DNA from: Candidatus Moraniibacteriota bacterium
Lineage (GTDB): Bacteria; Patescibacteriota; Minisyncoccia; Moranbacterales; UBA1568
Direction: 5' to 3'
Assembly (NCBI GenBank): GCA_013334245.1
Contig: JAAXXZ010000012.1
Span: 1 to 43,293 of the forward strand
DNA length: 43,293 bases
Shown: piece after piece, positions 3,874 to 38,279 of the stretch
Layout: each line of letters opens with the position of its first letter
Numbering within the stretch: the first letter of the stretch is position 1
Program-made: the position numbers and the translations under genes
Notes under the pieces: model-generated
What the model was told of the DNA's origin: nothing
What the model saw: the letters and a program-made list of their open reading frames with translations, nothing else
Databases searched by the model: none

Positions 3874-4113
3874 ATGTTTCACCTTTTACGGGTTGCTATC
3901 TGGATTACCGGGACCGTCACTTTGGTAGTCTTCGGACTCAGATATTTCGGTTTTGAGCCAAATTGCAATTACTGGAACCAGCAGGCCGCGCTTTGTGAAG
4001 GCGCCTTTTCTTCCTGCAAGGGAACGCTGTTTTGGAAGGGAGTGGAGGGCGTCCAGACGGAGTGCAGATGGAATTGTATCGATCCCGAATTGCTCATTCG
4101 AAAGTCGGAATAA
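3874..4113 (+). CDS. small cysteine-rich single-pass membrane protein, unknown function
   Basis: A 79-residue protein I do not recognise. Residues about 4-24 form one hydrophobic segment (RVAIWITGTVTLVVFGLRYF). A polar tail of about 50 residues follows with five cysteines in the pattern NCNYW, LCEG, SSCKG, ECRWNC. If the tail is extracytoplasmic, it could be disulfide-bonded. It ends 11 bp before the large GT-C gene starting at 4125, which suggests cotranscription and translational coupling. An alternative upstream ATG at 3856 would add six residues. The position suggests an accessory subunit for the GT-C protein; that is inference only. Confidence 0.55.
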   Translation: MFHLLRVAIWITGTVTLVVFGLRYFGFEPNCNYWNQQAALCEGAFSSCKGTLFWKGVEGVQTECRWNCIDPELLIRKSE

Positions 4114-4124
4114 TCCTTGCCGAT

Positions 4125-18368: not shown

Positions 18369-19928
18369 TCAATTAGCCGTTTTCCACCGATAAACGAGGA
18401 CGCTGCCGCGGAGAAGCGGATCGCTTTGCCGTTCCATGGTCCGGATGATATACGACTCTGTCTCACGCGAAACATAGTCCATGTCATTGTCGGAAGCGAC
18501 GAACCAACCGGTCGGATTCGTCCGCATGAACGCCTCGAGTTCCGCGACGGAAAGCTTCTCGGTCGAGAGCTCGCCACCATAATCGAGTACCCGTGCCTCC
18601 ATGCCGGAAAAATAGTAGTTCCGGAAATTGCGGGTGACGATCGCGTCGCCTTTGTCAGCGTGTTTTCGGACATAGGTGAAGACCTTGCGGTAGTTGGCGT
18701 TCGTTCCCGATGATGTCTGCCGGTAGGCGTTGTTATCCCGAAAGAAATATCCCCAGTCGGGAACGAGAACGGCAAGCACGATGGTCGCGATACAGGCGGC
18801 ATGCTTCCATTTTCCGGAAAGAGCTCCCTTTACTTCGCGAATGAGCGCATATCCGCCGGCAGCCACAAGCATCAGGAGGAACGACTGCGCGAAAAAGATG
18901 TACTGCTCCCCTTCGTTGCGACGCCAAAGAAAGACCGCCATGATAAGCGGCGTCAAAAAGGACGAGAGAAGCCAGACCGCCTCCCGTTTCCGGTCAAACG
19001 TATGAAACAACGACCAGGCACCGAATCCCGCCAGGAACACGGCAAGTATCGGCTGGACATAGTCCCGAACGACGTATCCGAAATAGGAATAGTGGTTCTC
19101 GAAAAATACGAGTGTTCCGGACAGGGGTCGGATCTTCTCCGGTACCGCAGCCCACATGCCGATCGCACCGACGAGGCCGGCGATCGCCGTCACAGAATAC
19201 CGATTCCGCATGCCCTTGCCGCTTCGTATCATGATTATCGCCATGGAAAGGACATAGACTCCGAAAATCGGCACGATATTTACGGTCAACTGATGTGTCT
19301 TCGCGGACAGTATTCCAAGTGTCAGTGTCGGAATCAGATAGGAAAGATTCACGCCGCTCCGCTCCCATATCTTTCTGATCGCTTTGAAACGCCCTTTGTA
19401 CTCCCGCTCATAGAGAAAGAAGAGACAGGTCGAGAACGCGAGAAACACAGGGAAGAACATCGCATACATCCGCAAACGACGGTCGAACCCGATACCGGAC
19501 ACCGACACCGCGCACAGGAATGCGGCGAACAGTCCGACCGTCCGACGACCGGACAGTTTCCAGCCGACGAGATACAGGAGCGCGACTGAAACGATACCCC
19601 ACAACGCGGATACCGTCCGTGCCACGCCTTCCGTCGGAGGTAGGAACCGGAACAGTTGGGATACCTGCCACTTGTATACGTTCGCACGCTCGTCGCGGGC
19701 AACGTTCTCGTTCACGATTGCCGTTTGTCCGTTGTTGAAATCCCAGGCCTTCCACTCGCCGGTACGGAAGAATCCGTACGACGAATTGATATCCAGGAAT
19801 TCGTCGGCGGTGAACGAAAGTGCCCCGATGCCGACGAATCGGAGGGCGGCGCCGAGAACAAGAATCCCGAACAGGACGAGGAGCGCATTCTTCTTGGTCA
19901 TACGTATATCTTTAGTCATTATGTTCAC
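18369..19928 (-). CDS. GT-C (GT39-like) membrane glycosyltransferase
   Basis: A 519-residue polytopic protein. Helix 1 (LLVLFGILVLGAALRFVGIGALSF) is followed by TADEFLDINSSYGFFRTGEWKAWDF, where DE is the GT-C acidic motif of GT39/PMT-like enzymes. GFDRRLRMYAMFFP, an Arg-Met-Tyr motif, also recurs in this group. The C-terminal part of about 130 residues is soluble. The start is GTG at 19928, chosen because it overlaps the upstream TGA as GTGA, a coupling arrangement; an ATG at 19919 is the alternative. Its acceptor and sugar are unknown. Confidence 0.78.
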   Translation of the reverse strand: MNIMTKDIRMTKKNALLVLFGILVLGAALRFVGIGALSFTADEFLDINSSYGFFRTGEWKAWDFNNGQTAIVNENVARDERANVYKWQVSQLFRFLPPTEGVARTVSALWGIVSVALLYLVGWKLSGRRTVGLFAAFLCAVSVSGIGFDRRLRMYAMFFPVFLAFSTCLFFLYEREYKGRFKAIRKIWERSGVNLSYLIPTLTLGILSAKTHQLTVNIVPIFGVYVLSMAIIMIRSGKGMRNRYSVTAIAGLVGAIGMWAAVPEKIRPLSGTLVFFENHYSYFGYVVRDYVQPILAVFLAGFGAWSLFHTFDRKREAVWLLSSFLTPLIMAVFLWRRNEGEQYIFFAQSFLLMLVAAGGYALIREVKGALSGKWKHAACIATIVLAVLVPDWGYFFRDNNAYRQTSSGTNANYRKVFTYVRKHADKGDAIVTRNFRNYYFSGMEARVLDYGGELSTEKLSVAELEAFMRTNPTGWFVASDNDMDYVSRETESYIIRTMERQSDPLLRGSVLVYRWKTAN

Positions 19929-22230: not shown

Positions 22231-24048
22231 TTATTGTTCCTCGCTGTCATTATCGTCATCGTTCCGCCCTTCCCACCATTCCCGCCAGGTATATCGCGGA
22301 AGCGTCGTCGTGTTATCCTTCTTTCCGTATGCTTCGAACACCTGACGCTCTGCTTGGACATATTCCGGCTTCGGTACGAACTCGACCATGGTCAGCGTTC
22401 CAAAGGGGCGACGGTCGATCACGTCATATTTTTCCAGATATTTCCGGATGCCCTCTTCGAGATCCGACTGCGACCGGATGATGAGGACATAGATCCCTTC
22501 ACGGTATATTCCGGAAAACCCCAAGACGTCGTTTCGGACACCGGCACGTTCGAGAAGATATTTCAACGCCCGTCTATGTTCGGGTTCGCTGAACATATAT
22601 ATGGGGTATCCGGATTCGTCCGAACGTCCCTTCAGGTACGAGACGATGTCTGCCTGCAAGGCAAGGGGTACACGGATCTTCTCCTTGAGAATCCGATCCG
22701 CAGGCGTATCGACCGCTTCCGTCGACGAACGGGCCATCTCGTCGAATCGTGTGGCCAAACCGGACAAATTGAGCCCGACAAAGACTAGCAATGCGATCGT
22801 CGCGATGCGGGCGATTTTGGTACCGTGTGGCAGCGCGATTCTTATCGATTCGATCAGGAATCCGAGCAGAAGGAACGGGATCGGTGCCTGAACGAGAAAA
22901 AACCGCGGCGCGAACCCGTATGAAAGCGGGGTAAGGACGATGAATGAGACGGCAAACCAGATACCGGTGAGCAAAAAGACGTCGGAACGTTGTCGCTCAC
23001 GGACCCGAATCCACAAGAACGCGAGAGAAAGAAGTGAAAGACCCGTGATTGCCACTGCTGTCATCCCGACCAATTTCCCGTGCTGGCATCTCATGTCGCA
23101 GTCAAGCCGTATCGTCCCGTCACGGAGCAGTTCGACGTCGGGGAATCCTCCATCCTCGATGCCGGTGGTGACCACCAGGTATCCAAGCCCGTGCTCGACT
23201 CCGTTGCGGACCAGTTTCTCGACCGGAGACCGCGCCTCCTTATTCGATTTTTCCGTCAGCGCGGCGATGAACGCCTTCGAATTGGCGCCACCGGTCCCCA
23301 TCTCGTTGAGCGCGACCGGGATATAGAACAGCAGGAACGCACTTGCGGCGACGACCCACGATTTCCACGAGAATCGCGGACGACGGACGAGGATGAATAG
23401 AAGGGATGCCGATGGCAAGACCAGGAAGGCGATGAAGTGCAGATGGGTCGCGAATCCGATTGCGAAAGCGGCAAGGCCGAACCATCGGCCAGGATAGCGC
23501 TCATCGGAAGAAACCGACCGAAGAAGCGCATACAGACCGAGTAGCGAAAAGAACGGAAGTGGGTTCGGATTCCACGCGAACCGTCCGTATGAGACGAGAT
23601 ATTCCGACGTGGCGAAAAGCGCCGTCAGCACGAGCGAGAGCGGTACACGAAAGACCCGTCGGGCAAACAGGTGAAACAGGACGATCGAGGCTACGGACAG
23701 GATAGGAACGACCGTGGCGATACCTTGAGGAGTGTTACCGAACAGGAGCGCGGACAGGTACTCCAGATAATAGAAACCGGGGCCGAGTCGGAGTGACGTG
23801 CCGCCGGCCTTCATGCCGAGAAGGGTCAACTCGCCCGGACCTCCGAGAACCGCTTCTCGCACTACGAGCGCGTCGCGGGCCTGATCGAGTTCGAAATGCA
23901 GCCACTCGGTAAAATGATAGGATCTCAAAAACACTCCGACCGCCAAAATGACGACCAGCCAAAAAAACTCGGATCTGCATATCCTAGACATGGATTCCCT
24001 TGCGGAAAACGGCATATCATGATGACGATTAGAGTCTCTGTCGTCCAT
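22231..24048 (-). CDS. GT-C (GT39/ArnT-like) membrane glycosyltransferase
   Basis: A 605-residue polytopic protein and a close relative of the 16346 and 28357 gene products. The first loop contains ELDQARDALVVREAVLGGPG and LLGMKAGGTSLRLGPGFYYLEYL, with the putative catalytic Asp in DQARD. FAWNPNPLPFFSLLGLYALL follows at the conserved interval. The C-terminal soluble domain (about residues 455-605) ends in an acidic tail. It is the first gene of the minus-strand operon and ends 8 bp before the beta-helix protein. ATG 24048 is preceded by a weak GGGAAG; ATGs at 24015 and 23991 are alternatives, the last placing the start nearest to helix 1. Confidence 0.8.
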   Translation of the reverse strand: MDDRDSNRHHDMPFSARESMSRICRSEFFWLVVILAVGVFLRSYHFTEWLHFELDQARDALVVREAVLGGPGELTLLGMKAGGTSLRLGPGFYYLEYLSALLFGNTPQGIATVVPILSVASIVLFHLFARRVFRVPLSLVLTALFATSEYLVSYGRFAWNPNPLPFFSLLGLYALLRSVSSDERYPGRWFGLAAFAIGFATHLHFIAFLVLPSASLLFILVRRPRFSWKSWVVAASAFLLFYIPVALNEMGTGGANSKAFIAALTEKSNKEARSPVEKLVRNGVEHGLGYLVVTTGIEDGGFPDVELLRDGTIRLDCDMRCQHGKLVGMTAVAITGLSLLSLAFLWIRVRERQRSDVFLLTGIWFAVSFIVLTPLSYGFAPRFFLVQAPIPFLLLGFLIESIRIALPHGTKIARIATIALLVFVGLNLSGLATRFDEMARSSTEAVDTPADRILKEKIRVPLALQADIVSYLKGRSDESGYPIYMFSEPEHRRALKYLLERAGVRNDVLGFSGIYREGIYVLIIRSQSDLEEGIRKYLEKYDVIDRRPFGTLTMVEFVPKPEYVQAERQVFEAYGKKDNTTTLPRYTWREWWEGRNDDDNDSEEQ

Positions 24049-24146: not shown

Positions 24147-26462
24147 ATGAGACGAATCATGACGTTCAAAGGCGTTCCGTGGCGGCATTTGGTACCGGAT
24201 GTTCTTCTTTCATCGCTTTTAGCCGCAAACACGGCGATCCTTCTTGAACGAAAGGCTGTCGATCCAGGATTCGTCCTGTTCGAGCGCGTATCGTGGCACT
24301 ATCTCATTTTTTTCGTCATCGGTGGCATTCTCGTATTCCGACTCATATCACGACTGCGGACCGTTTCCAAACCACGCTACGCATCCGCAATCGAATTCCT
24401 GTTTACGATACTGCCTGTCTGGCTGGTGCTTTATCACGGACTCTTTCTTTCGGGCAGGGAAACCCTGATTCATCCTTGCTTTCACTTTCTGGCCGGAATC
24501 TACCCTTTTCTTCTCGCATTCGCACTGCTACGTTTTCGTTCCGATGCCGTCGTGACGGACACGCCCGCATTGCCTCGGACACGGGTCATGATTCAGCGCT
24601 GGTTCGTCAAACAGGGAACCGACTTTTTGGCCGTCCTCACGATCGCAACCGTCGCTTCCGGATTTTTTTTCCTTCACGACATCGGTCGATTCGCCGGTGT
24701 CGACGAACCGCTCTGGACCTTTGACCGTATTCCGAGTTATTGGAAAAATATCGGCGAAGGCGACTGGGCCGGAACGAATATAAGTGACAAACCGGGAGTC
24801 ACTGTCGCGCTCTTCTCCGGAGCGGGCTTCTTCTTCATCGACGATCCCGCGTCATACGAAGCCGGCAAGGATAATTCCCAACCCAAAGACATCCTCCCGA
24901 TGAATCGCGCGTTGCGAATTCCAATCGCCCTGTTCGCGACCCTCTCGATACCCCTGTTTTATCTGCTCTGCGAGCGCCTCCTTGGTCGTCGTGCCGGTCT
25001 TCTTTCCGCAATTCTTATCGGCTTTTCTCCGATTCTCATCGGGATGAGCCGGCTTATCAATCCGGATGCGCTCCTATGGATCTTCGGACCCGCATCACTG
25101 CTCTCCTTCCTCGTCTTCGGCAAACGCCGAATGCCTGCGTTTCTTCATCTTTCTGGATTCCTTCTGGGACTCGCGCTCCTGACCAAATACGTCGCGAACA
25201 TCATGTTCCCGTTCCTGCTTCTCCTCATTCCGCTGTCATACCTGTTGAAGAACCGATCCAACAGGATTCCCGAAGGCATCTATCTTCGTGACGCGCTGAG
25301 AAACTTGTTCGGTCTTTCCACGACCGCGCTTCTCACTTTTTTTCTCCTGTATCCGACCACCTGGATGCGACCTATGGAGCTGCTCAAGGGAACCGTCCTT
25401 TCGGAAGCGTTCGCACCCGTGTGGCCGTTCTTTGCCGCCGCGGCGGCACTGCTGGTTTTCGACGGCTTTGTGCTCGACGGGAAGTTGCTTCGCATCATCT
25501 CCCGACCGTTCCCCGACGGATGCCTATTGCGAAGATTCGTCGGCGGCACTTTCCTTCTCATCATGCTGCTTGTCATCGGAAACACGCTTTCCGGAATGAA
25601 CCTGGCCGATTTCCAGTCGATCCTATCGTCACCGAAAAGCTCATACCGCGACGTCGGCACGCTCCCTTTTTTTCTTACGAACGTCTATCCGCTCCTGTTC
25701 GGCATACCGCTCCTGACCCTGTCCGGTCTCTTCATCGGTTCGATACTCCTCTTCCGCTCACCTGACGACCGGTACCCGGAACGCCCACTCGACGTCATTA
25801 CGGTCCTCTTCCTGTTCGTACTGACCTATGAAGCCGCAGCGACGGTGACACATGTGGCGTCAATGGCACGCTACCAGATCATGCTCTTTCCGATCGTCGG
25901 AATTATCGCCGGAACCGCGATAGCGCTTTCCATCAGGCCGCTCCTGCAGACCCTTCGATTTACCGGTACGACGTTCGCGGGTATCGCCTTCGTAATAGCA
26001 TTCGTCGCGTCGATCCCGCCCTTCCTTTCCGAACCGTTCTCCCTCAGCTATGCCTCCCCACTTCTTCCGAAGCGGTATTACCTCGACGTCAAGGACATGG
26101 GTTCCGGTTCGTACGAGGCCGCGACATTCCTGAATGCCCTGCCAGACGCGGAACATCTTTCCGTCTGGACGGATAAGAAAGGTCTCTGCACCTTTTTCGT
26201 CGGACAGTGTCATACCGAGCTCTCTTTCGAGGAGCTCGACGGCGTCGCTCTCGACTACGTCGTCGTCTCCTGGAGTCGAAAATCCCGTACTTCAACGGTC
26301 ATTTCGCGAGATCGCAGACTGTCCGGACATCCCGTACTCGACTTTTCGAACTACTATGATCGCGAGGATGGCCTTGCATATCGGCTCGACATCGGCGGTC
26401 GACCCGGACAATACGTGAAGGTGATTCCGGTCGATTCCACGCGTCCATCAGTCGTACGATAA
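24147..26462 (+). CDS. GT-C membrane glycosyltransferase, first of a tandem pair
   Basis: A 771-residue polytopic protein. An extra N-terminal region of about 170 residues with several helices precedes the GT39-like core. The core motif is FAGVDEPLWTFDRIPSYWKNI, then GDWAGTNISDKPGVTVAL, with DE as the expected catalytic acid. It recurs nearly residue for residue in the next gene (TTDEHLWKYDRIGRYW, GDWNGTYINDKPG). The end also matches (AYRLDIGGRPGQYVKVIPV). The two genes are 5 bp apart and are probably a tandem duplication, the first copy having gained or kept an N-terminal membrane module. Transfer from polyprenyl-phosphate sugar at the outer face is inferred from the superfamily. Confidence 0.78.
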   Translation: MRRIMTFKGVPWRHLVPDVLLSSLLAANTAILLERKAVDPGFVLFERVSWHYLIFFVIGGILVFRLISRLRTVSKPRYASAIEFLFTILPVWLVLYHGLFLSGRETLIHPCFHFLAGIYPFLLAFALLRFRSDAVVTDTPALPRTRVMIQRWFVKQGTDFLAVLTIATVASGFFFLHDIGRFAGVDEPLWTFDRIPSYWKNIGEGDWAGTNISDKPGVTVALFSGAGFFFIDDPASYEAGKDNSQPKDILPMNRALRIPIALFATLSIPLFYLLCERLLGRRAGLLSAILIGFSPILIGMSRLINPDALLWIFGPASLLSFLVFGKRRMPAFLHLSGFLLGLALLTKYVANIMFPFLLLLIPLSYLLKNRSNRIPEGIYLRDALRNLFGLSTTALLTFFLLYPTTWMRPMELLKGTVLSEAFAPVWPFFAAAAALLVFDGFVLDGKLLRIISRPFPDGCLLRRFVGGTFLLIMLLVIGNTLSGMNLADFQSILSSPKSSYRDVGTLPFFLTNVYPLLFGIPLLTLSGLFIGSILLFRSPDDRYPERPLDVITVLFLFVLTYEAAATVTHVASMARYQIMLFPIVGIIAGTAIALSIRPLLQTLRFTGTTFAGIAFVIAFVASIPPFLSEPFSLSYASPLLPKRYYLDVKDMGSGSYEAATFLNALPDAEHLSVWTDKKGLCTFFVGQCHTELSFEELDGVALDYVVVSWSRKSRTSTVISRDRRLSGHPVLDFSNYYDREDGLAYRLDIGGRPGQYVKVIPVDSTRPSVVR

Positions 26463-26467
26463 ATCCT

Positions 26468-28360
26468 ATGCGCCTGGAAACCTCATCTCTCCGTTACGCA
26501 CTCGCGATCGCGACCCTTTCGGTCATTTTCCTGCTGTTCGGGACCTACCATCTGGGGAAATTCGAGACGACCGACGAGCACCTGTGGAAATACGACCGCA
26601 TCGGACGATACTGGTCCGCTCTCGCACGGGGCGATTGGAACGGAACCTACATAAACGACAAGCCGGGCATTACCGTGGCCCTTATCTCCGGCATCGGGCT
26701 CCTTTCCGAACCCGATCCGAAAAAAAACGAGATGAAATCGATCGGTAACGACGCGCTCTATGAACGGTACGACGCTGACCATACGGCGATCGCGAACGTA
26801 CGGTTCCGACTTCCCGTTCTCCTGTTCGCTACCGCCTCCCTTACCGCCTTCTATCTTCTTTTCGCACAGGCGTTCGGTTCCCGTCGTGCGGCGCTTCTGT
26901 CTACCGCCCTGATCGCGCTCCATCCGATCCTTCTCGGCATGTCACAGATCATTAATCCGGACAGCTTTTTCTGGATCTTCGGAGGACTTTCGGCGGTCGC
27001 GTTCCTTGCGGCAGAGCGCACCGGACATCGAGCATTCATATTCCTATGCGGCATCCTGACAGGATTCGCCCTGCTTTCGAAATACACCGCCTTTTCGCTC
27101 TTCCTTTTCTACGGCCTCGTACTTGCCGCGCGGTTCATGTTCCCGGAACCGGTCCGACCTGAACCGAGATCCGCATTCCGAGGTGTGCTTGATATCGGTC
27201 TCGTCTTCGTCGTGGCGGCCGCGATATTCGCGCTCTTTCTTCCGGCGACATTCCTTCATCCCGAATATCTCTTCAGCGGTATCTTACAATTTTTCGATGG
27301 CGGCACAAAACCGGCAATCATACTCCTTTTCGTCGCCGTTCTGTCCGCGGTCATCCTGTTCGCTCTGCGTCGATACGCGTCCGCCCTGCTCGATCGAACC
27401 AGTCGTCTCGGCAGGCCAGCACTGCTCGCCTTATCCCTGGCATTCCTTGCGCTGATCGGGGTCTCGGTCCTGAACGTATGGACCGGTCAGCGGATATCGC
27501 CCGTCGAATCCCTCCGTGACGCCTCATACGCGAACGAGCCGAACAATTTCAGTTTCAAGCCCGTCATGGACCGGAAGACCGAGCCGGAACCAGGGCAGTC
27601 GGCGAAACTGTTCCTCATGGAAGCATACCCGTTCGTCTTCTCGTTGACACCGATACTGATGCTCTCCGTCATCTTCGCATCTGTCCTTGCCCTTCAGGGA
27701 ACGCTGACCCCGGCTCTTTCCCGAAATTACTTCGCGGTCATCGCATTCACGCTTTTTTACTTCGCCTCCACGCTCTCCGCCAAGGTAGTCACGAACGTCC
27801 GTTACTCAATCCTCCTCTACCCCTTGGCCGCCCTCCTTGGCGGTCTCGCGATCGATCACGCACTCGCGCGCTTCGCATCGCCGAAACGGCAACAGATCTT
27901 CTTTCTCACGACCATGTCGGTCACGATTGTCCTCGGCATCGCGACCCTCTGGCAGTTACGTCCCTTCCCGTTCAGCTTTACCAGCGTCCTGCTTCCGAAA
28001 ACATCCACGATCCATGACTCGTGGGGACACGGATCCTACGAGGCCGCGGAATACCTGAACGCTTTGCCGGACGCGGAGAACATCGTCATCTGGTCCAACA
28101 GCGATACCGTCTGCCGATTTTTTCGCGGAAAGTGTCTCAAGAGCCGCAAGATCGATCTGACTCGCGTCACCCCGGACTATTTTGTCCTTTCCAAGCGCGG
28201 GGTTCTCAAGAATAGCAACCGCTTCGTCCTTCAGAATGCTCCCGACCCGGAATTGTCCGCCGATCGATACTATGACCATATCGACGAACTCGCCGTCTGG
28301 CGACTCGACATCGGAGGAAGATCCGATAATTTCATAACCGTCATACCCTCGAACCTATGA
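26468..28360 (+). CDS. GT-C membrane glycosyltransferase, second of a tandem pair
   Basis: A 630-residue polytopic paralogue of the preceding protein, lacking its N-terminal extension. TTDEHLWKYDRIGRYWSALARG carries the acidic DE motif after helix 1. NDKPGITVALISG follows, and LHPILLGMSQIINPDSFFWIFG matches FSPILIGMSRLINPDALLWIFG in the sister protein. The C-terminal 110 residues are soluble with a conserved GSYEAAEYLNALPDAENIV stretch also shared with the sister. It ends with a 4-bp ATGA overlap with the next gene, so translation is probably coupled. Different acceptors or different sugars for the two paralogues are possible. Confidence 0.8.
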   Translation: MRLETSSLRYALAIATLSVIFLLFGTYHLGKFETTDEHLWKYDRIGRYWSALARGDWNGTYINDKPGITVALISGIGLLSEPDPKKNEMKSIGNDALYERYDADHTAIANVRFRLPVLLFATASLTAFYLLFAQAFGSRRAALLSTALIALHPILLGMSQIINPDSFFWIFGGLSAVAFLAAERTGHRAFIFLCGILTGFALLSKYTAFSLFLFYGLVLAARFMFPEPVRPEPRSAFRGVLDIGLVFVVAAAIFALFLPATFLHPEYLFSGILQFFDGGTKPAIILLFVAVLSAVILFALRRYASALLDRTSRLGRPALLALSLAFLALIGVSVLNVWTGQRISPVESLRDASYANEPNNFSFKPVMDRKTEPEPGQSAKLFLMEAYPFVFSLTPILMLSVIFASVLALQGTLTPALSRNYFAVIAFTLFYFASTLSAKVVTNVRYSILLYPLAALLGGLAIDHALARFASPKRQQIFFLTTMSVTIVLGIATLWQLRPFPFSFTSVLLPKTSTIHDSWGHGSYEAAEYLNALPDAENIVIWSNSDTVCRFFRGKCLKSRKIDLTRVTPDYFVLSKRGVLKNSNRFVLQNAPDPELSADRYYDHIDELAVWRLDIGGRSDNFITVIPSNL

Positions 28361-30822
28361 AGATTACCGACCTGCTCCGATATTCCGGATCGACCGGAAG
28401 ATTTCGGACGCTTTTCTCGCTTTTCCGCCGTCACGAAACGCATATCGCGCTCGCGGTCATCATCATCGCGGGAGCGATGCTCCGTCTTACGGATTTTTCT
28501 GACCTCGCGCGATTCAATGCCGATCAGGCGCGGGACGCCGCCGTCATAGACGTCATGTCCGAAGGAACCGTCTTTCCGCTACTCGGTCCAAAAGCCGGCG
28601 GAACGACCTTCAGGCTCGGTCCGGCATTCTATTATCTGCAGTTCCTGTCCGGTCTTTTCTTCGGTCACGACCCCGCAGGCATCGCCATCTTCGTTCCGAT
28701 ACTCTCGATACTCTCGCTGTTGCTTCTTTTTCGTCTCTTAACGATACTGTTTCCGGTCCGGCTCTCGCTTCCCCTGACCCTTTTGTCCGCCGTTTCCTTT
28801 TACGGCGTCAAATATGCTCGGTTCGCGTGGAACCCGAACCCGATCCCGTTCTTCGTGCTCGCCTTGCTATCGCTCTTGCTCCACCTTACGGACAAGAACG
28901 GAAAACGCTCCACGCTTTTCGCCATCCTCCTCGGTCTCGTCATCGGTATCGGAACCCAGCTTCATACCGTACTGCTGTTCCTTTTCCCGGCGATGCTCTT
29001 TCTGACGGCGGTGTTCCTTGTCGTGCGGGACCGGAAGCTGCCCATCTTCCGTTTCGCAATTATCATCGGTATCGCACTCGCGCTTCACGTCCCGGTCCTC
29101 GTTTCCGAACTGTCGACCGGCGGTGCCAATACGACCGCCTTCCTGAACGGTATCGACACCAAGACCGAACACCGGACATCCCTCGTGAAAACCGTCCTGC
29201 TCGACCTGGAATTCTTCGGACAAGGAACCGCATACGCCCTGACCGGTATCGAACCGGATCATGGCTGGACAAACCCTATCAAACTCATCGGAACGCATGA
29301 CCCGGTTGAGATATCGCTTTTTCTCGGCTCCCTCGCACTTCTTTCGGTCGGGCTCATCGGTTTCGTCTTCACGATATTTCGCCGGTCATCCGGTCAAAGA
29401 CGACGGCTCCTTGCGCTCATCGGATCGTTCTCCGGGCTCTCTTTCCTGCTCTTCCTGCCGCTCGGAAACGAACTCAATATCCGTTTCTTCATCATCCTGC
29501 TCTTCCTGCCGTACGTTTTCATGGGCATTCTTGTCGACTCGCTTACCACGCGACGCGAGTTCCGCCCTGTCGTTCTCATCGGGTTCACCACTCTTACGGC
29601 AGCGCTTCTTTTCACGAATCTTCGGTCCTCCTTCATGACGTACGACCTGTCCAAGTATCGAGCCGCCGAAAGCGCATACGGAGGTATTAGCCTTGGCGAA
29701 GCGCAGTCGCTCGCCGACTTCGTCCGGGAAACGGCGCACGAATCGGCTGCATCCCTTTTCCCGTTCGAATTCGCGCGGAGCGTGCGATACCTGGTCGAAC
29801 GGACCGGAATGCCGTTTCCGGAATACGATCAGAACAAGGCCGCTCCGGATTCCTTCGTCTTCGTCATAGAGCCCACCGATTCAAATATGACAGGCACGTC
29901 CGACTACGCCAGCCGCTTCGATCTCGTCTCGACGGCACGCTTCGGTCGGTTTACCGTTACCGCGATGCGCGTGAAGCCGTTCAAGGATATCCGAGTCGGA
30001 TTCATCACCGACATTCACGCGAAAACGACCTCGAAATCTACGGCAATCGAGGGCATCATTTCCGATTCCGGACGAGGGCTATCGGCATTCGTTCAAAGAA
30101 TGAATGACTCGTTCCACCCGGACTTCGTAGTAGACGGCGGCGACTTCATAGACGGCACCAACCGTCGTGGTCCGAAGTCCCTCGCGGATTTCGACGCGGC
30201 AGAAACGCTGTTCGATCGGACGGATTCGCCCCGCTATCACGTCATAGGCAATCACGACCTACGCGGACTCTCCGTCGCGGAATGGATCCGTCTTTCGAAT
30301 AGTCCGACTACCGATGTTCCCTATTATTCCTTCGACACGGACGACCTCCGCACGATCGTCCTCGACGGCATCGGCACCCCGACCGATTCCGGCACCTATG
30401 TCATCTCCGATGAACAGATCCGATGGTTCGAAGAAAGGTTGCGGGAAGCCTCCTCTATGAGAAAAATCGTCTTCATCCATGTACCGATCACTGGTGTCGA
30501 TATGCTTCGACCCGAACAGCTTCCGCCGATTGCCGACACTCCTTCAGCGGCCCTGTACGACCTGGCCAAGCGTTACGGCGTACTCGCGGTCTTTTCGGGG
30601 CATGTCGAGCTCGCCCGTTATTCGGAAGACGCCAAAACGAGATTCTTCACGTTACCGGGGCTCTATCGAAGCAAAAATAAAAACATCCTCTGGCTGGACT
30701 GCTACTACGAGGTCACGATCGGAAGAGCGACGGAGGTACGGATGTTCTACCGGAAAGACCCCGGGGATCCGTACCAGGAAGTCGATATTCCATCACCGGA
30801 GTTCGATGCGCTTACGAAATAA
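28357..30822 (+). CDS. GT-C glycosyltransferase fused to a calcineurin-like metallophosphoesterase
   Basis: An 821-residue two-module protein. Residues about 1-540 are a DQARD-type GT-C enzyme: NADQARDAAVIDVMSEG, LLGPKAGGTTFRLGPAFYYLQ, FAWNPNPIPFF. From about 544 a complete metallophosphoesterase follows: DIH near 551, GGDFID near 593, GNHD near 631, the lone His in FIHVPI near 706, and GHVE near 748, where the usual GHxH has lost its last His. Both GT-C C-terminal domains and this module should lie outside the membrane. A plausible job is to hydrolyse the (pyro)phosphate lipid or another phosphoester linked to the transfer; that is inference. It ends overlapping the convergent gene by 11 bp. 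Confidence 0.85.
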   Translation: MKITDLLRYSGSTGRFRTLFSLFRRHETHIALAVIIIAGAMLRLTDFSDLARFNADQARDAAVIDVMSEGTVFPLLGPKAGGTTFRLGPAFYYLQFLSGLFFGHDPAGIAIFVPILSILSLLLLFRLLTILFPVRLSLPLTLLSAVSFYGVKYARFAWNPNPIPFFVLALLSLLLHLTDKNGKRSTLFAILLGLVIGIGTQLHTVLLFLFPAMLFLTAVFLVVRDRKLPIFRFAIIIGIALALHVPVLVSELSTGGANTTAFLNGIDTKTEHRTSLVKTVLLDLEFFGQGTAYALTGIEPDHGWTNPIKLIGTHDPVEISLFLGSLALLSVGLIGFVFTIFRRSSGQRRRLLALIGSFSGLSFLLFLPLGNELNIRFFIILLFLPYVFMGILVDSLTTRREFRPVVLIGFTTLTAALLFTNLRSSFMTYDLSKYRAAESAYGGISLGEAQSLADFVRETAHESAASLFPFEFARSVRYLVERTGMPFPEYDQNKAAPDSFVFVIEPTDSNMTGTSDYASRFDLVSTARFGRFTVTAMRVKPFKDIRVGFITDIHAKTTSKSTAIEGIISDSGRGLSAFVQRMNDSFHPDFVVDGGDFIDGTNRRGPKSLADFDAAETLFDRTDSPRYHVIGNHDLRGLSVAEWIRLSNSPTTDVPYYSFDTDDLRTIVLDGIGTPTDSGTYVISDEQIRWFEERLREASSMRKIVFIHVPITGVDMLRPEQLPPIADTPSAALYDLAKRYGVLAVFSGHVELARYSEDAKTRFFTLPGLYRSKNKNILWLDCYYEVTIGRATEVRMFYRKDPGDPYQEVDIPSPEFDALTK

Positions 30823-31783
30823 TCGGCTCTTCCGGGTCGATATGGTATGTTTTCTTGTCACGAAAAAAGAACGAGGCGCCGACGAGACTGACCAGGATCT
30901 GGATGAAACGTCCCAGCAAGGCAACGGCAAGCGCCGCTTCGGGTCGGACGCCGATCAACGGGAAAAACGTATAATACGCCCACTCCTTGAGACCGATATT
31001 GTTGATGGATATCGGCAGGCTGGAGATAAGACTGATGAGGAATACGGTCGCCAGATACGGCATGATCGGCACGCGCTCTCCGAGCGCGAAGAATATCATC
31101 AAATTGAACAACCCGACGCCGACAATGGCGAACACCGCCGAAAGGATGAAGTTTTCCCGCAGGAACGGCCAATTCGCATACCCGCCGACCTCGCTGAAAA
31201 AATATCGGATCCTCTTCGGGAGCCATTCCACGAATTTCTTGAATCGAGGATGGGCGTAGACATATACGAGTACGATATCCGCGATCATGAACAGGAACAA
31301 TCCCAGACCGAATGCCGCGTAGAGCGGCTGCGCGAATATCTTTTTGAATCCGAGAAAACCGAAAATGAAAAACAGGACTATCGTCGCCCACAGTCCGATG
31401 AATCGCGTGAACATGACCGTTGAAATGGCCGCGGGATACCGCTTCTCGGACTTTCCCAGAATGTAACTCTGATACGCGTCCCCACCCAGAAATGACGGGA
31501 GAAAATTATTCAGGAACAGGCCCGCTAAATAGAACCCGGTCGCGTTCCTGAAAGTCATCGCGAAGTTCTTGTAATGCGCCGCACGCCACCAGCGTTCGAT
31601 ACACATGAACAACCCCATGAGATAAAAGCCGAGTGCGGCGAACAGGAACGGCAAAGATGCGTGAGACACCTCCGACCAGATGGTATACCAATCGACGTTA
31701 CGGATGAGGAGCGCTATCAGGACGACCGCCATCGTCAGCTTGAATACGAAAAAGGCCTTTTTCTTCAGGGGCTTGTTTTGCAT
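30812..31783 (-). CDS. LPG-synthase-type/AglD-like integral membrane protein (UPF0104)
   Basis: A 323-residue polytopic protein of the lysylphosphatidylglycerol-synthase transmembrane-region family (PF03706 type), whose members include flippase-like and AglD-like proteins found in glycan loci. Recognisable parts are LFLNNFLPSFLGGDAYQSYIL near residue 90 (the NxxxPxxxGGD motif), SAVMFTRFIGL-like helix (STVMFTRFIGLW), and SSLPISINNIGLKEWAYYTFF near the C-terminus (the PxSxxGxGxRE-like motif). The soluble LPG-synthase domain is absent. It overlaps tail-to-tail with the preceding plus-strand gene. Lipid-carrier transport or sugar transfer are both possible. Confidence 0.8.
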   Translation of the reverse strand: MQNKPLKKKAFFVFKLTMAVVLIALLIRNVDWYTIWSEVSHASLPFLFAALGFYLMGLFMCIERWWRAAHYKNFAMTFRNATGFYLAGLFLNNFLPSFLGGDAYQSYILGKSEKRYPAAISTVMFTRFIGLWATIVLFFIFGFLGFKKIFAQPLYAAFGLGLFLFMIADIVLVYVYAHPRFKKFVEWLPKRIRYFFSEVGGYANWPFLRENFILSAVFAIVGVGLFNLMIFFALGERVPIMPYLATVFLISLISSLPISINNIGLKEWAYYTFFPLIGVRPEAALAVALLGRFIQILVSLVGASFFFRDKKTYHIDPEEPIIS

Positions 31784-32542: not shown

Positions 32543-33775
32543 ATGACCAGCACGACGAACACCAGTCCTGATACGGCGCGGAACGGTTCGGACAACCTGC
32601 CCGACGAAAACGGCTTCTTCGGCGAATACGGCGGCCGGCTTGTCCCGCCCGGACTGATATCCGTACTACGGGAAGTAACCGAGGCATACGAAACTGCGAG
32701 AAAAGATCCGGCATTCATCGAAGAATATCGCGCTCTTCTTTCCGAGTACGTCGGACGGCCCTCTCCGATATATTTCGCGAAACGACTGACTGAAAAGCTC
32801 GGCGGATCGAAAATCTACCTCAAGCGCGAGGACCTGAACCATACGGGTGCGCACAAGATCAACCACACGCTCGGCGAAGCGCTGCTCGCGAAGCGGATGG
32901 GTAAATCCAAACTGCTTGCCGAAACCGGAGCCGGACAGCACGGGGTCGCCCTTGCGACAGCCGCGGCAATCGTCGGATTGCAGTGCGAAATTCATATGGG
33001 CGCGATCGACATCGAAAAGCAGCATCAGAACGTCTTACGGATGCGGATGCTCGGTGCGACGGTCGTTCCGGTCGAATCAGGCGGACGATGCCTCAAGGAT
33101 GCCGTCGACAGTGCTTTTACGACCTATCTTGCCGGACACGACCGCACATTTTTCGGCATCGGATCCGTAGTCGGACCGCATCCGTATCCGATGATGATTC
33201 GGGACTTCCAGTCGATTGTGGGCGAGGAAGCGCGCCGGCAGATGCTCGAACGCGAGGGAAGACTCCCGGATGTGCTTGTAGCCTGTGTCGGCGGCGGGTC
33301 GAACGCCATCGGCCTTTTCAGCGCATTCCTGAATGACGCCGTCGACATGATCGGCGTCGAGCCGGCCGGCAGAAGCTTTAAAAAGGGCGATCATGCGGCG
33401 ACACTGACATTCGGCAAGCCGGGCGCGATTCATGGCATGTTCACGTATCTTCTACAGGACGAAAACGGAGTGCCGGACCCGGTCCACTCGGTTGCCTCGG
33501 GGCTCGACTACCCCGGCGTCGGTCCGCAGCATTCCTATCTGAAGGATTCGGGCAGAGTGTCGTATGTTACGGCAAACGATGAGGAAACGCTGAACGCGTT
33601 TTCCGTCCTCTCGAAAACGGAAGGCATCATTCCGGCGCTTGAGAGCGCGCACGCCGTCGCGCACGCGATCAAAATCGCTCCGGATATGGATAGTGACGCG
33701 ATCATCCTCGTAAACCTTTCCGGTCGCGGTGACAAAGATATCGATTATGTTGCCGAACGAATCATGCCCAGTTGA
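32543..33775 (+). CDS. trpB: tryptophan synthase beta subunit (TrpB1 type), without trpA
   Basis: A 410-residue PLP enzyme that makes L-tryptophan from indole and serine. The PLP lysine is K105 in [23 protein letters not shown] follows, and the phosphate-binding GGGSN is at about 250-254. The N-terminal [10 protein letters not shown] and the ending [13 protein letters not shown] are standard for TrpB1. It contains no tryptophan residue by my reading. No trpA or other trp-pathway gene follows; a terminator lies 6 bp after the stop. It may use salvaged indole or act with TrpA encoded elsewhere. The gene lies 126 bp after the attenuator's T-run; no good Shine-Dalgarno is present. Expression should depend on tryptophan-sensed readthrough at 32335-32416. 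Confidence 0.95.
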
Positions 33776-33841: not shown

Positions 33842-34357
33842 TCACCCCGATACGATTCCATCCGACAGATCCAGGTATTCGTACATGTTCGGAACGAACT
33901 TTTCCGGAAAAAAAGCCGTTTCTTTTCGAAGTTCATCAATCGGAAACCAGCGGATATCCTCTATGCTTCCTGCTTCGGTTTCAAACGATTCCGCAGGAAT
34001 ATCGACGACAGCCACATACCATTGTACGAAAAAATTATGATCCCCGTACCTACGCACCTTTCTGCTCTTCCGAAACTTCATATCCGAGAGTCCGATTTCT
34101 TCCCTGGCCTCCTTGAGGATGTTCGAGTCATACGTTTCCCCGGCTTCAACCGTTCTGGATACGGCGGGGCCCCACTTCCCGGGATCATTCCGCTTGGTAA
34201 AAGCCCTCTGAACGAGCAGCGCATCCCCGCGACCGTTCGTCACCCAGAGCGCTGAAACACGATAAATGTCGGGGCTTCCGACCCCGACCAGGCCCCTATC
34301 CTTGATTCCGATGATATTGTCATTCTCATCAACGATGAGTATCGGCTCTTTTATCAT
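33842..34357 (-). CDS. Nudix-family protein with a degenerate box (IPP-isomerase-like)
   Basis: A 171-residue protein of the Nudix fold. ILIVDENDNIIGIKDRG and SALWVTNGRGDALLVQRAF match the IPP-isomerase/YfcD-like group. The box region RTVEAGETYDSNILKEAREEIGL keeps the E-E pairs needed for metal, but the first Gly is Arg and the usual Arg of REUxEE is Lys. Such changes are tolerated in some IPP-isomerase-like members. It overlaps the upstream GT4 gene by 4 bp (ATGA), so it is translated with it. It may act on a nucleotide-sugar or polyprenyl intermediate. Confidence 0.75.
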   Translation of the reverse strand: MIKEPILIVDENDNIIGIKDRGLVGVGSPDIYRVSALWVTNGRGDALLVQRAFTKRNDPGKWGPAVSRTVEAGETYDSNILKEAREEIGLSDMKFRKSRKVRRYGDHNFFVQWYVAVVDIPAESFETEAGSIEDIRWFPIDELRKETAFFPEKFVPNMYEYLDLSDGIVSG

Positions 34358-35508
34358 TTCTGTCCCAGTTTCGTGCTACCTTCGTACTCTTCCACGTATC
34401 GCATCGCCTGCGCGGTCCAATCCATCGATTCCGCCTTAATCCTGCTTGCGGCGCCCATTCGGGCGCGAAGCCCGGCGTCGGAAGCGAGCTTTCCGATTTT
34501 TTCCGCCAGGTCCTCGGGCGACTCCTTCTTCACAAAAAACCCGTTCTCGCCGTCGGTGACCAGCTCCTCCGTTCCGCCGGTCACCGTCGCCACGATAGGC
34601 AGTCCGGACGCGATCGCCTCGAGCACCGTATTGCTCATCCCCTCGTTCAAGGACGGGAGGCAGAAGATATCGCATTCACGATAGACCGCGGGCGTCCCGT
34701 CGTGCGGGACGAGACCCCGGAAATCGACACGCTCCGTCACCCCGCACTCCGCGGCGAGCGACTCGAGATATTCACGTTCCCCTCCGGCTCCGGCGATGAC
34801 GAGCCGCGCCGACTCAGGAAGCGACGCCATCGCACGCACCAGGAAGCGGACACCCTTGCGAGGAGTGAGCCGTGAGACTACCAATATGCGGACCATACCG
34901 TCCGATACGCGCTCATGATCGGGATGAAATTGACCGGTATCGACGCCGTTCGGAATGATTTCGATTTCCTGCCGGGCATCCGTCATGAGGGCGAGGTCGC
35001 GCAATCCCCGACTGTTCGAGATGACATCCGCCGATCTACGCCAGACGATGCGTGCAAGCGGCCTGAACACGGAGTAGAGGAGTTTGAACCGTTCACTGTA
35101 TCCGGGGACGTCGGCTCCCCGCAGCGACACGATATACGGCAATTTGAACTCAAAACTGAGCACCATCGCGAGAAACCCGCACGGGACCGTAAAAAAGGCG
35201 TGGATAAGGGAGAAATTTCCCTCCTGACGAATCAGCTTCCGAGAGAAGAAATACGCGCTCCAGGAATAGGCGAGCAGGTTCGCTCGGGACTGGTAGTGCA
35301 GGTTCCGGTCATCCTTGCCAATCGGCAACCGATGGACGACGACGTTCTTGCCGACGCGCTCCCGCGAATACTCGTCGCCGACCGCAGACGTCACCAGGTG
35401 CACCGTAAGATTCGCCATCTTCGCATACTCACGCAAAAGATACGCGGTCGCGTTCCCGGCGCCTCCCCCGAGCGGAGGATACTCATAGTTGAGGAATAAG
35501 ATTTTCAT
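34354..35508 (-). CDS. GT4-type glycosyltransferase (GT-B fold)
   Basis: A 384-residue GT4 enzyme. MKILFLNYEYPPLGGGAGNA is a textbook N-terminus with the glycine-rich acceptor loop. IVSLRGADVPGY, EIIPNGVDTGQFHP at the domain junction, SRLTPRKGVRFLVRAM, GAGGERE and the complete E-x7-E motif in NEGMSNTVLEA follow. It would transfer a sugar from a nucleotide donor to a lipid-linked acceptor in the cytoplasm. The frame opens at a TTG at 35523, but ATG 35508 fits the family start. It lies in a five-gene minus-strand operon with Ugd and GT2. Confidence 0.9.
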   Translation of the reverse strand: MKILFLNYEYPPLGGGAGNATAYLLREYAKMANLTVHLVTSAVGDEYSRERVGKNVVVHRLPIGKDDRNLHYQSRANLLAYSWSAYFFSRKLIRQEGNFSLIHAFFTVPCGFLAMVLSFEFKLPYIVSLRGADVPGYSERFKLLYSVFRPLARIVWRRSADVISNSRGLRDLALMTDARQEIEIIPNGVDTGQFHPDHERVSDGMVRILVVSRLTPRKGVRFLVRAMASLPESARLVIAGAGGEREYLESLAAECGVTERVDFRGLVPHDGTPAVYRECDIFCLPSLNEGMSNTVLEAIASGLPIVATVTGGTEELVTDGENGFFVKKESPEDLAEKIGKLASDAGLRARMGAASRIKAESMDWTAQAMRYVEEYEGSTKLGQK

Positions 35509-35573
35509 CGGTTTAGAACACAAATCTCAGAAAACAATAACCAAACGAAGCCCGAAACACGCATCCCAAACCG

Positions 35574-35999: not shown

Positions 36000-37325
36000 C
36001 TATCGTCCAATAGAATGATACTCGAACCCGAGTCCGTTCATTTTTTTCGGCTCATACAAGAGGCGTCCATCGAAGACGACCGGCTCCTTTAACAGCGCCT
36101 TGATCCGGTCGAAGTCCGGCGTCCGGAACTCCTTCCATTCGGTGACCACGAGCATCGCATCCGCGCCGTCGAGCGCATCGTATTTGTCCTCGAAATACGT
36201 AATCGACGGATTGTCTCCGAAATACTCCGGCGTTTTGGCCATTCTCATCGCTTCCGGATCATGCGCCCGGACGGACGCTCCCCGTTCGATCAACGCGTTG
36301 ACCGTCGCTATCGCGGGAGACTCGCGCATGTCATCCGTCCCGGCCTTGAATGCCAATCCCCATATGCCGAAGGTCTTTCCCGTCAAATCCTTACCGAATC
36401 TGTCTTCCACCATTCCTACCAACACGAGCTTCTGTCTCTCGTTGGTATCGAGCGTCTGTTTGAGCATGCGGGCCTCGTATCCGAAATCGGCGGCGGTCTT
36501 TACCAGCGCCTTCACGTCTTTCGGAAAACAGGAACCGCCGAAGCCGGCACTCGCATACAGGAACGCCTCACCGATGCGGGGATCCGCCCCCATCGCTTTG
36601 CGGACATTTTCGTAATCGGCTCCCGTCTTCGAACATATGTTGGCAAGTTCGTTCGAGACCGAAATCTTGGCAGCGAGGAAACAGTTCGACGCGTATTTGA
36701 CGATTTCTGCCGTTTTGGCATCCATGGCGAAAAATCGCCCCTCTCGCCTCATGAACGGCTCATACAGCTCACGCATCGTCTCGATAGCCTTCGGATCGTC
36801 TGAACCGACCACGACTCGGCTCGGCTGCAGGAAATCCTTGACTGCGGTCCCCTGTGCCAGGAATTCAGGATTGCTCACTACCTGAAACGGTATATCGACT
36901 CCACGTCGCTCCAGCTGCTCCGCGATCGTCTTCGCGACCTGGGCGGCGGTGCCGACCGGCACCGTCGACTTGTCCACAACGATGATCTCGTGATCCATAC
37001 AGCGCCCGAGATCGTTCGCGACCCCGAGCACATGGGAAAGATCGGCACTGCCATCCTCGTTCGGCGGAGTCCCCACCGCGATGAATACGATATCGCTTGC
37101 CTTCAGGGCCGCCTCGAAATCGGTCGTAAACGATAACGTCTTGTTCTTCAGATTACGAAGTACGATTTCGTCCAGACCCTTTTCATGCAGCGGAGCTTTT
37201 CCTGACTCGAACTGATCGATCTTGTTCCGATCCTTGTCGACACAAACGACGGTATTGCCCATTTCCGCAAAACAGGCTCCCGTGACCGAACCAACGTAGC
37301 CAGTTCCGATAACTGCGATATTCAT
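36000..37325 (-). CDS. ugd: UDP-glucose 6-dehydrogenase
   Basis: A 441-residue enzyme that oxidises UDP-glucose to UDP-glucuronate with two NAD+. MNIAVIGTGYVGSVTGACFAEMG is the canonical start. VSNPEFLAQGTAVKDFLQPSRVVVG holds the conserved NPEFLREG-like loop; KYASNCFLAAKISVSNELANIC and GFGGSCFPKDVKAL contain the active-site Cys. GLAFKAGTDDMRESPA opens the C-terminal domain. All family landmarks and the length are normal. It differs from the HSPERIDPGK-type enzyme at 2410-3726. It lies 12 bp after a GT2 gene, within the five-gene operon. Confidence 0.93.
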   Translation of the reverse strand: MNIAVIGTGYVGSVTGACFAEMGNTVVCVDKDRNKIDQFESGKAPLHEKGLDEIVLRNLKNKTLSFTTDFEAALKASDIVFIAVGTPPNEDGSADLSHVLGVANDLGRCMDHEIIVVDKSTVPVGTAAQVAKTIAEQLERRGVDIPFQVVSNPEFLAQGTAVKDFLQPSRVVVGSDDPKAIETMRELYEPFMRREGRFFAMDAKTAEIVKYASNCFLAAKISVSNELANICSKTGADYENVRKAMGADPRIGEAFLYASAGFGGSCFPKDVKALVKTAADFGYEARMLKQTLDTNERQKLVLVGMVEDRFGKDLTGKTFGIWGLAFKAGTDDMRESPAIATVNALIERGASVRAHDPEAMRMAKTPEYFGDNPSITYFEDKYDALDGADAMLVVTEWKEFRTPDFDRIKALLKEPVVFDGRLLYEPKKMNGLGFEYHSIGR

Positions 37326-37337
37326 ACGATGCGGTTC

Positions 37338-38279
37338 CTATGAGTTGACGAAATCCCGTACCGAATAGTTCATTCTTCCCCTTTGGCGATAGAAGGTCTT
37401 CACGGCCGTGTCCACGAGAATACCGAAGACGAACAACTGGACACCGACCAGAATCAGCAGCGTGCCGACCAGCGGCCATATCCGCTCGGAAAGGGACGCT
37501 TCGAAAAAGACCTTTTCGACGAACATCCACATCAGAACGAGGGAACCGAAAAATATCGACACGAGTCCCGTACCGCCGAACAGGTGCAGGGAACGATACG
37601 AGTACTTGCGCCAAAACCACAGGAAAACCATGTCGACAAACCCCTTTATACCCCGTTTCCAATTGTAGTTCGTTTTTCCATGAATGCGCGGATGATGAGA
37701 CACCTTCACCTCCGTCACCCTGAAACCGTCCAACAGGAGCAGGGCGGGAATAAACCGGTGCATCTCCCCGAACAGGTCGACGCCGTCGAAGCACTCCCGG
37801 CGGAACGCCTTCAGGCTGCACCCCGAATCGTGAATGCCGTCCTTGATGAGCAGTCCCCGGAGCAGGTTGGCCGTGCGGGAAAAGAACTTCTTCATGAACG
37901 TGTCCTTCCGCTTATGTCTCCACCCCGAAACGACATCATAGCCGTTATCGATCTCGGTGAGCAGCAGCGGAAAATCCGCCGGGTCGTTCTGCAGGTCGCC
38001 ATCCATCGTAATGATGACATCCCCTTTCGATGCCTTTATGCCGGCATCGAACGCGGCCGTCTGACCGAAATTCTTTCGGAATCTTATAAGCCGAAGCGGC
38101 GAAAGCCCCTTGCAACTTTCGACCGTCGCATCACTCGAGCCGTCATCGACGAAGACGATCTCGTACGGCTTTCCGATTTTTTCGAACGATTCCTTGATGC
38201 GACGATGCAGTTCCTGTACGTTTCCCTCCTCGTTATAGAGCGGAACCACTGCCGATAGCAACGGTTTCTGGTCTTCCAT
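37338..38279 (-). CDS. GT2 polyprenyl-phosphate glycosyltransferase (ArnC/GtrB-like)
   Basis: A 313-residue enzyme of the ArnC/GtrB group, which makes polyprenyl-phosphate sugar at the inner leaflet. LSAVVPLYNEEGNVQELHRRI, FVDDGSSDATVE and the DxD region TMDGDLQNDP form the GT-A site; a later RGLLIKDGIHDSGCSLKAFRRE matches the SGFRLYSR-like loop. Two C-terminal membrane helices (GLVSIFFGSLVLMWMFVEKVFF and LVGTLLILVGVQLFVFGILVD) complete the fold. It is first in the minus-strand operon and has its own promoter (38343-38371). Confidence 0.9.
   Translation of the reverse strand: MEDQKPLLSAVVPLYNEEGNVQELHRRIKESFEKIGKPYEIVFVDDGSSDATVESCKGLSPLRLIRFRKNFGQTAAFDAGIKASKGDVIITMDGDLQNDPADFPLLLTEIDNGYDVVSGWRHKRKDTFMKKFFSRTANLLRGLLIKDGIHDSGCSLKAFRRECFDGVDLFGEMHRFIPALLLLDGFRVTEVKVSHHPRIHGKTNYNWKRGIKGFVDMVFLWFWRKYSYRSLHLFGGTGLVSIFFGSLVLMWMFVEKVFFEASLSERIWPLVGTLLILVGVQLFVFGILVDTAVKTFYRQRGRMNYSVRDFVNS

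Follow-up and report, generated by a model that had tools for sequence, protein, structure and literature searches.

A gene of Candidatus Moranbacteria that joins a GT-C glycosyltransferase to a metallophosphoesterase predicted to be extracytoplasmic

Introduction

What might a single protein do with both a membrane-embedded sugar transferase and a phosphoester-cleaving domain? The question is raised by a gene in a 43,293-nucleotide contig of a Candidatus Moraniibacteriota bacterium (GenBank assembly GCA_013334245.1, contig JAAXXZ010000012.1, forward strand), the whole of which we refer to as the window. The host is a tiny uncultured bacterium with a genome of 1.12 Mb (95.5% complete), and the envelopes of Patescibacteria are poorly known biochemically. 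A sequence-only reading of the window had proposed that the gene encodes a GT-C glycosyltransferase fused to an extracytoplasmic metallophosphoesterase (MPE), an order known from no described enzyme. The gene and its parts are as follows:

28357..30822 (+), fused GT-C and MPE gene, 821 amino acids (ORF, translation, Pfam)
28357..29976 (+), GT-C module, residues 1-540, with 11 predicted transmembrane (TM) helices followed by a soluble alpha/beta domain at 431-540 (AlphaFold2, Foldseek)
28522..28536 (+), DQARD motif, residues 56-60, in the first extracytoplasmic loop between TM1 and TM2 (translation, model)
29977..30822 (+), calcineurin-like MPE module, residues 541-821, lacking a membrane anchor of its own (PF00149, AlphaFold2, Foldseek)
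30010..30018 (+), metal-ligand motif DIH, D552 and H554 (alignment)
30601..30609 (+), metal-ligand motif HVE of GHVE, H749 and E751, with Glu for the usual last His throughout the clade (alignment, 28/28 clade members)

The claim that this order is new held up in the open-access literature (most subscription papers lie outside it), where we found neither a described GT-C::MPE fusion nor a described MPE with a GHxE motif. Both halves are of known kinds; no description turned up there of their combination, of its repeated origin or of the Glu-ligand clade, the architecture having been surveyed within Patescibacteria.

Results

The fused gene is genuine and intact

The gene at 28357-30822 (+) is a single open reading frame of 821 amino acids, with an ATG start and no internal stops on translation. 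About five residues separate the GT-C part (1-540) from the MPE part (545-821), and the last strand of the GT-C C-terminal domain runs directly into the first MPE strand (RFTVTAMRVKPFKDIRVGFITDIHA). Free-standing homologues of the GT-C module, which occupy the third GT-C slot of the locus in relatives and which we term GT3, end a few residues past the last strand of the C-terminal domain. Close stand-alone MPEs carry an anchor of roughly 30-60 residues before their first MPE strand, and this has been deleted in the fused gene. Because the anchor-coding stretch is gone at the junction, a single sequencing error is excluded as the cause of the fusion. The GC content across the junction is even, at 55-58%.

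The surroundings of the gene are conserved in relatives, and the genes of the window that correspond to them are listed here:

24147..26462 (+), GT-C-like glycosyltransferase, 771 amino acids, operon gene 1 (PMT_2 4e-14; syntenic homologues)
26468..28360 (+), GT-C glycosyltransferase, 630 amino acids, operon gene 2, overlapping the fused gene by 4 nt (PMT 2.8e-9; syntenic homologues)
30812..31783 (-), flippase-like membrane protein (PF03706/TIGR00374), convergent with the fused gene (profile matches; syntenic)
34354..35523 (-), GT4 glycosyltransferase of the conserved block (profile match; syntenic)
36000..37325 (-), nucleotide-sugar dehydrogenase, UDP-glucose 6-dehydrogenase-like (TIGR03026 443.9 bits; 42-86% identity in syntenic loci)
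37338..38279 (-), polyprenyl-phosphate-sugar synthase, ArnC/GtrB/DPMS-like GT2 (ArnC 2.3e-42, GtrB and DPMS in PDB; 65-81% identity in syntenic loci)

In the relatives the order is a divergent GT-C, a GT-C of about 750-800 amino acids, a GT-C of about 630 amino acids and then, where present, GT3 and the MPE; the convergent part consists of the flippase-like gene, the GT4, the nucleotide-sugar dehydrogenase and the ArnC/GtrB-like GT2. At these orthologous loci of the same order (Candidatus Moranbacteria) the two modules are adjacent, separate genes. Genome G125 has a GT3 that is 40% identical to residues 39-540, with a separate MPE 4 nt downstream, and G030 has two MPE genes, of two types in one operon, followed by GT3. 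GT3 is present with no recognised MPE beside it in G074, G031 and G073, and in three genomes of the same genus (G001, G002 and G005) an anchored MPE fills the slot without GT3. Overall, the GT-C module is 37-42% identical to its free-standing orthologues.

Split genes in relatives might be taken as a sign of misassembly in the window. However, an assembly or frameshift artefact was ruled out by the loss of the anchor-coding stretch, the even GC content and the occurrence of fusions on other branches, and a chance motif match by the Pfam PF00149 match and the modelled MPE fold. In relatives, the locus has free-standing homologues of both halves as neighbours, and further GT-C::MPE fusions are found on separate branches; this too excludes chance and artefact. 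With the intact frame, the two folds, the metal ligands and the relatives all in agreement, the proposed fusion was borne out.

The GT and MPE trees each split the related fusions into four groups

Five further GT-C::MPE proteins were found: one in each of loci L089 and L090 (904 amino acids; genomes G098 and G041), one in L080 (831 amino acids; G042) and two in L092 (731 and 712 amino acids; G117). Two GT-C paralogues of the window that lack an MPE help to place them:

22231..24048 (-), GT-C paralogue without MPE, 605 amino acids, divergent from the operon (profile match, GT tree)
18369..19928 (-), X-type GT-C paralogue without MPE, 519 amino acids, with MPE-fused relatives in G042 and G117 (GT tree)

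The fused transferases occupy four places on the GT tree. The window fusion lies in the GT3 clade (support 100/97), the G098/G041 fusions in a clade near the 605-residue paralogue, the G042 fusion beside an unfused G087 protein (100/100), and the G117 fusions with the 519-residue paralogue (93/93). As the same four groups are also separate on the MPE tree, we estimate at least three, and probably four, independent fusion events. The split state of the G042 type is seen in G054, where a GT-C is followed 8 nt downstream by an MPE (L083). In L092 (4093-9975) the two tandem GT-C::MPE paralogues, of the GHWH type, flank a GT-C of their own clade that is not fused.

Adjacency without fusion was also enriched. 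Within the loci fetched for their MPE, to which the count is restricted, 12 of 46 stand-alone MPE genes had a same-strand GT-C within 100 nt, compared with 6 of 179 control ORFs of the same loci (odds ratio 10; Fisher p 1.06e-5, which is optimistic because the loci are related). Compared between the two trees, an MPE subtype is not tied to any one GT-C clade.

The window MPE domain matched 79 of 131 genomes of the order at E <= 1e-3 and the MPE profile 19 of 380 genomes of a phylum sample at E <= 1e-10, so that, thresholds differing, the clade looks concentrated in the window's order. Within the order, MPEs of this kind are patchily distributed. PF00149 matches nothing but the fused domain in the host genome (G000; E <= 0.001), and it has matches in all 14 control genomes. 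Spread by phage or plasmid found no support: no phage matched and no plasmid record spanned both domains; a scan of viral contigs gave one distant MPE.

The GT-C half is modelled as an ArnT-like transferase

In Pfam, residues 89-248 matched PMT_2 (PF13231) with E 3.1e-5 and 24.7 bits, under the cut-off of 26.1. AlphaFold2, run with 19 GT-C homologues, gave pLDDT values mostly of 75-96 over residues 23-540, and the best Foldseek match of this part in the PDB was ArnT (5ezm, E 3e-8), with further matches to oligosaccharyltransferases (OST), AftA, ALG9 and PMT. In the model, residues 1-540 thus adopt a polytopic, ArnT-like GT-C fold. Eleven TM helices can be counted in it (15-44, 112-131, 134-154, 163-177, 185-199, 204-223, 230-254, 316-342, 346-369, 375-396 and 400-429). 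D56, R59 and D60 of the DQARD motif are nearly invariant in the alignment, D56 and D60 being the acidic residues of the first extracytoplasmic loop that are a criterion of the GT-C superfamily. The modelled protein therefore resembles ArnT/PMT-type enzymes (GT83/GT39): it has the GT-C fold with at least 11 TM helices, an acidic motif in the first loop on the outer side and a C-terminal domain that is also outside. It differs in falling below the Pfam sequence cut-off and in carrying a C-terminal MPE.

From the fold and the ArnC-like GT2 in the conserved block, we infer that the GT-C half transfers sugar from a polyprenyl-phosphate-sugar; the GT2 at 37338-38279 is the probable maker of this donor.

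The MPE half belongs to a clade with Glu in place of the last metal-binding His

The Pfam family PF00149 (Metallophos) matched residues 545-750 with E 1.3e-11 and 45.7 bits, above the cut-off of 21.5. In the full-length AlphaFold job the MPE rows were aligned to the GT-C part, giving low confidence for the MPE, and the domain was therefore modelled alone, yielding a pTM of 0.81 and Foldseek matches to GpdQ, purple acid phosphatase and SMPDL3B. Among solved MPEs, those nearest in profile and fold are GpdQ, Rv0805, purple acid phosphatases and SMPDL3. The ligands that had been read from the sequence are present in the alignment (D552, H554, D596, N632, H633, H708 and H749), with E751 replacing the last His, and the domain conforms to the PF00149 pattern D-x-H, GD, GNH[DE], H, GH.

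The Glu had been read as a single altered ligand that might tune metal use. That view was not upheld: Glu occupies the last-His position of GHxH in all 28 members of the clade, which also rules out a damaged site. The other ligands are nearly always kept in the clade, the His of DxH being Gln or Ala in four members, and related MPE clades adjoining other GT-Cs have GHxH. With Glu invariant across the whole clade, the alignment marks out these proteins as a distinct MPE subfamily. In GpdQ the last His of GHxH binds the first metal, so that a changed metal preference in the Glu-ligand clade is plausible, and the clade offers a testable departure from the GHxH rule.

The fused MPE shares the D-x-H, GD, GNH[DE], H and GH motifs with GpdQ and the class III cyclic-nucleotide-type phosphodiesterases (GpdQ, Rv0805, CpdA). 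It differs from them in the clade-wide Glu, in being membrane-bound and predicted extracytoplasmic, and in its linkage to a GT-C. The class III signature ends in GHxH (PMC8366450), where the fused MPE has GHVE, and against the NCBIfam SpdA model it scored 35 bits, with a cut-off of 400.

A second, more derived type of MPE (type B) has GDHD for GNHD (Asn to Asp) and G[DE]xH for GHxH. It forms part of the fusions in G098/G041 and adjoins GT3 in G125; judged by its non-canonical ligands, it may be altered or inactive. The fused MPEs of L089 (4592-7306) and L090 (5167-7881) have DxDH, GDHD and GEAH for DxH, GNHD and GHxH, together with an insert, and a free-standing version occurs in L001 (7532-8551). 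Proteins of about 700 residues with an N-terminal MPE that lacks several metal ligands were seen in L083 (3360-5570), L091 (6368-8479), L093 (6488-8662), L094 (3721-5853), L095 (4314-6473) and L096 (4512-6602), near GT-C genes in some of these loci. In the L083 protein, repeats of the 'KKWDGKRWTDVSD' kind follow the MPE domain. By their sequences, these are possibly non-catalytic binding proteins.

Such losses of ligands in MPEs that adjoin or are fused to GT-Cs (L083, L091, L093-L096 and type B) could suggest that the MPE of the window is also non-catalytic, serving for binding or structure, or that its two halves are joined by a local pseudo-fusion or a sequencing error. We regard this as improbable: all predicted ligands are present in the window MPE and nearly invariant in its clade, and the anchor deletion at the junction goes beyond a single-base error.

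The MPE is predicted to lie outside the membrane

Given an N-terminus inside, the model predicts an outside position, as in ArnT/PMT, for the C-terminal alpha/beta domain and for two loops, one with DQARD (56-60) and one at 257-312. The fused MPE has no N-terminal anchor and hangs from the GT-C end predicted to be outside. Each of the 46 stand-alone MPEs has a hydrophobic N-terminal TM or signal segment, and 44 show a positive-inside pattern, with more positive charge before the segment than after it (mean net charge +3.9 before and 0.0 after). Since the GT-C C-terminal end faces outside in the model and the anchors and charges of stand-alone relatives point the same way, the MPE domain is predicted to be extracytoplasmic, in keeping with the sequence-only reading. 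A cytoplasmic MPE, which would have counted against that reading, was rejected on the predicted topology.

An anchored MPE of envelope synthesis has a known parallel in LpxG, a UDP-diacylglucosamine pyrophosphatase (PMC4807358). Like the MPEs described here, LpxG is calcineurin-like; it carries an anchor at its N-terminus and serves the synthesis of envelope glycolipids. Its motif, however, is GHxH, its substrate is a UDP-linked precursor of lipid A, and it has no GT-C link.

The MPE domain is also the sole PF00149 match in the genome (E <= 0.001) and GpdQ is its nearest solved enzyme, as might be expected of a general extracellular phosphodiesterase that scavenges phosphate, nucleotides or glycerophosphodiesters and is merely tethered by the GT-C. 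However, MPEs of this kind are specifically and repeatedly associated with GT-C genes and with a conserved glycan locus, and stand-alone relatives are already anchored, so that no GT-C tether is needed; scavenging is accordingly a doubtful role.

The two halves may couple extension of a lipid-linked glycan to its release

Because relatives carry GT-C and MPE as neighbouring genes and have fused them repeatedly, the two steps are very probably connected in the construction of the cell surface. Repeated joining of one pair of activities counts among the better signs of a shared pathway that sequence alone can give. The free pairing of MPE subtypes with GT-C clades suggests a substrate common to GT-C pathways, for example a carrier-linked glycan. 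Our preferred reading, to which we assign a probability of roughly 0.4, is that the protein is a bifunctional extracytoplasmic envelope enzyme whose MPE cleaves the glycan-carrier linkage of a lipid-linked glycan. We infer that both halves are active, that they lie outside (from the topology) and that they share a substrate; the precise bond cleaved by the MPE is a guess. The fold is common to phosphodiesterases, monoesterases and pyrophosphatases and so does not fix the bond.

In this mechanism the GT-C would extend a growing surface glycan by a sugar and would hold the MPE against the same outer membrane face; the donor would be a polyprenyl-phosphate-sugar, of which the GT2 (37338-38279) is the probable source. 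A two-metal centre, with Asp, His, Asp and Glu at one site and Asp, Asn, His and His at the other, would then hydrolyse a phosphoester of the lipid-linked glycan on which the GT-C works. The most likely single step would be a cut where the glycan is joined through phosphate to its polyprenyl carrier; glycan and polyprenyl-phosphate would both be set free, and elongation would thereby be coupled to release.

The host genome encodes one PF02397 phosphoglycosyl transferase, and UndPP-glycans should therefore exist. It also encodes one UppP; no PAP2, PF00884 or LicD was detected. Two points count against cleavage of the carrier linkage: with UppP present, recycling of UndPP needs no MPE, and a patchy distribution across the order is less expected of a core carrier step. 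With a carrier-linked glycan as its substrate, the MPE would offer a way of recovering polyprenyl-phosphate on the outside.

The sequence-only reading had suggested the spent carrier as one possible substrate. Removal of phosphate from spent polyprenyl-phosphate, or from polyprenyl-pyrophosphate, would suit a domain modelled beside the GT-C active site on the outer leaflet, and all GT-Cs share the carrier as a substrate. However, GT-C transfer from a polyprenyl-phosphate-sugar leaves polyprenyl-phosphate, the form that the cell must keep. The suggestion is weakened because the GT-C already releases this reusable form, whose hydrolysis would waste carrier, and because UppP for polyprenyl-pyrophosphate is in the genome; we consider it unlikely.

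Less probable than cleavage of the carrier linkage, yet the closest competitor, is that the MPE trims the acceptor glycan for the GT-C. It would take off a substituent attached as phosphate or phosphodiester, such as phosphoethanolamine, glycerol-phosphate or a phosphate cap, and so uncover or shape the place where the sugar is added. PGAP5/MPPE1 offers a likeness by description, in its action on GPI anchors: it is an MPE of the eukaryotic secretory pathway that remodels a GT-C-built glycan, with phosphoethanolamine as substrate, although it is eukaryotic and a separate protein. The closest solved relatives of the fused domain are phosphodiesterases (GpdQ, Rv0805, SMPDL3), the patchy distribution and the two MPE types in one operon of G030 fit a variable decoration, and the extracytoplasmic placement also fits. 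On the other hand, neither a PF00884 enzyme of the phosphoethanolamine/glycerol-phosphate transferase type nor LicD was detected in the genome, leaving no known installer among these families, and the GT-C partners of the MPEs come from more than one clade. For these two reasons we prefer cleavage of the carrier linkage.

That preferred reading has a precedent in B. subtilis UpsH (YpbG), an MPE thought to free polyprenyl-phosphate from UndPP-linked polymers, which was reported on the cytoplasmic face, without shown enzymatic activity (PMC11898649). The likeness to the fused MPE is one of description, and UpsH is not described as fused, whereas the window MPE is predicted to be outside. More speculatively, GT-C and MPE pairs, fused or adjacent, might form a module of the outer leaflet in Candidatus Moranbacteria, where a Glu-ligated MPE would release or edit polyprenyl-linked glycans during extension. 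Such a module, assembled by repeated and independent fusion, would be an extracytoplasmic counterpart of UpsH. The findings predict a phosphoester-cleaving step on the outer face in a surface-glycan pathway of Patescibacteria.

Other genes of the window

The gene at 19925-22222 (-), which overlaps the X-type GT-C gene (18369-19928) by 4 nt, encodes a protein of 765 residues. A hydrophobic segment lies at its N-terminus, a beta-helix spans 148-303, and a C-terminal PGA_cap (CapA-like) match at 634-716 looks degenerate; the window may thus contain a second calcineurin-type fold beside a GT-C. A trpB gene (tryptophan synthase beta; 32543-33775, +) lies inside the otherwise conserved surface-glycan block. 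Finally, the product of the gene at 4032-6083 (+), 683 residues long, is predicted to have about 14 TM segments and matched no Pfam family up to E 0.01.
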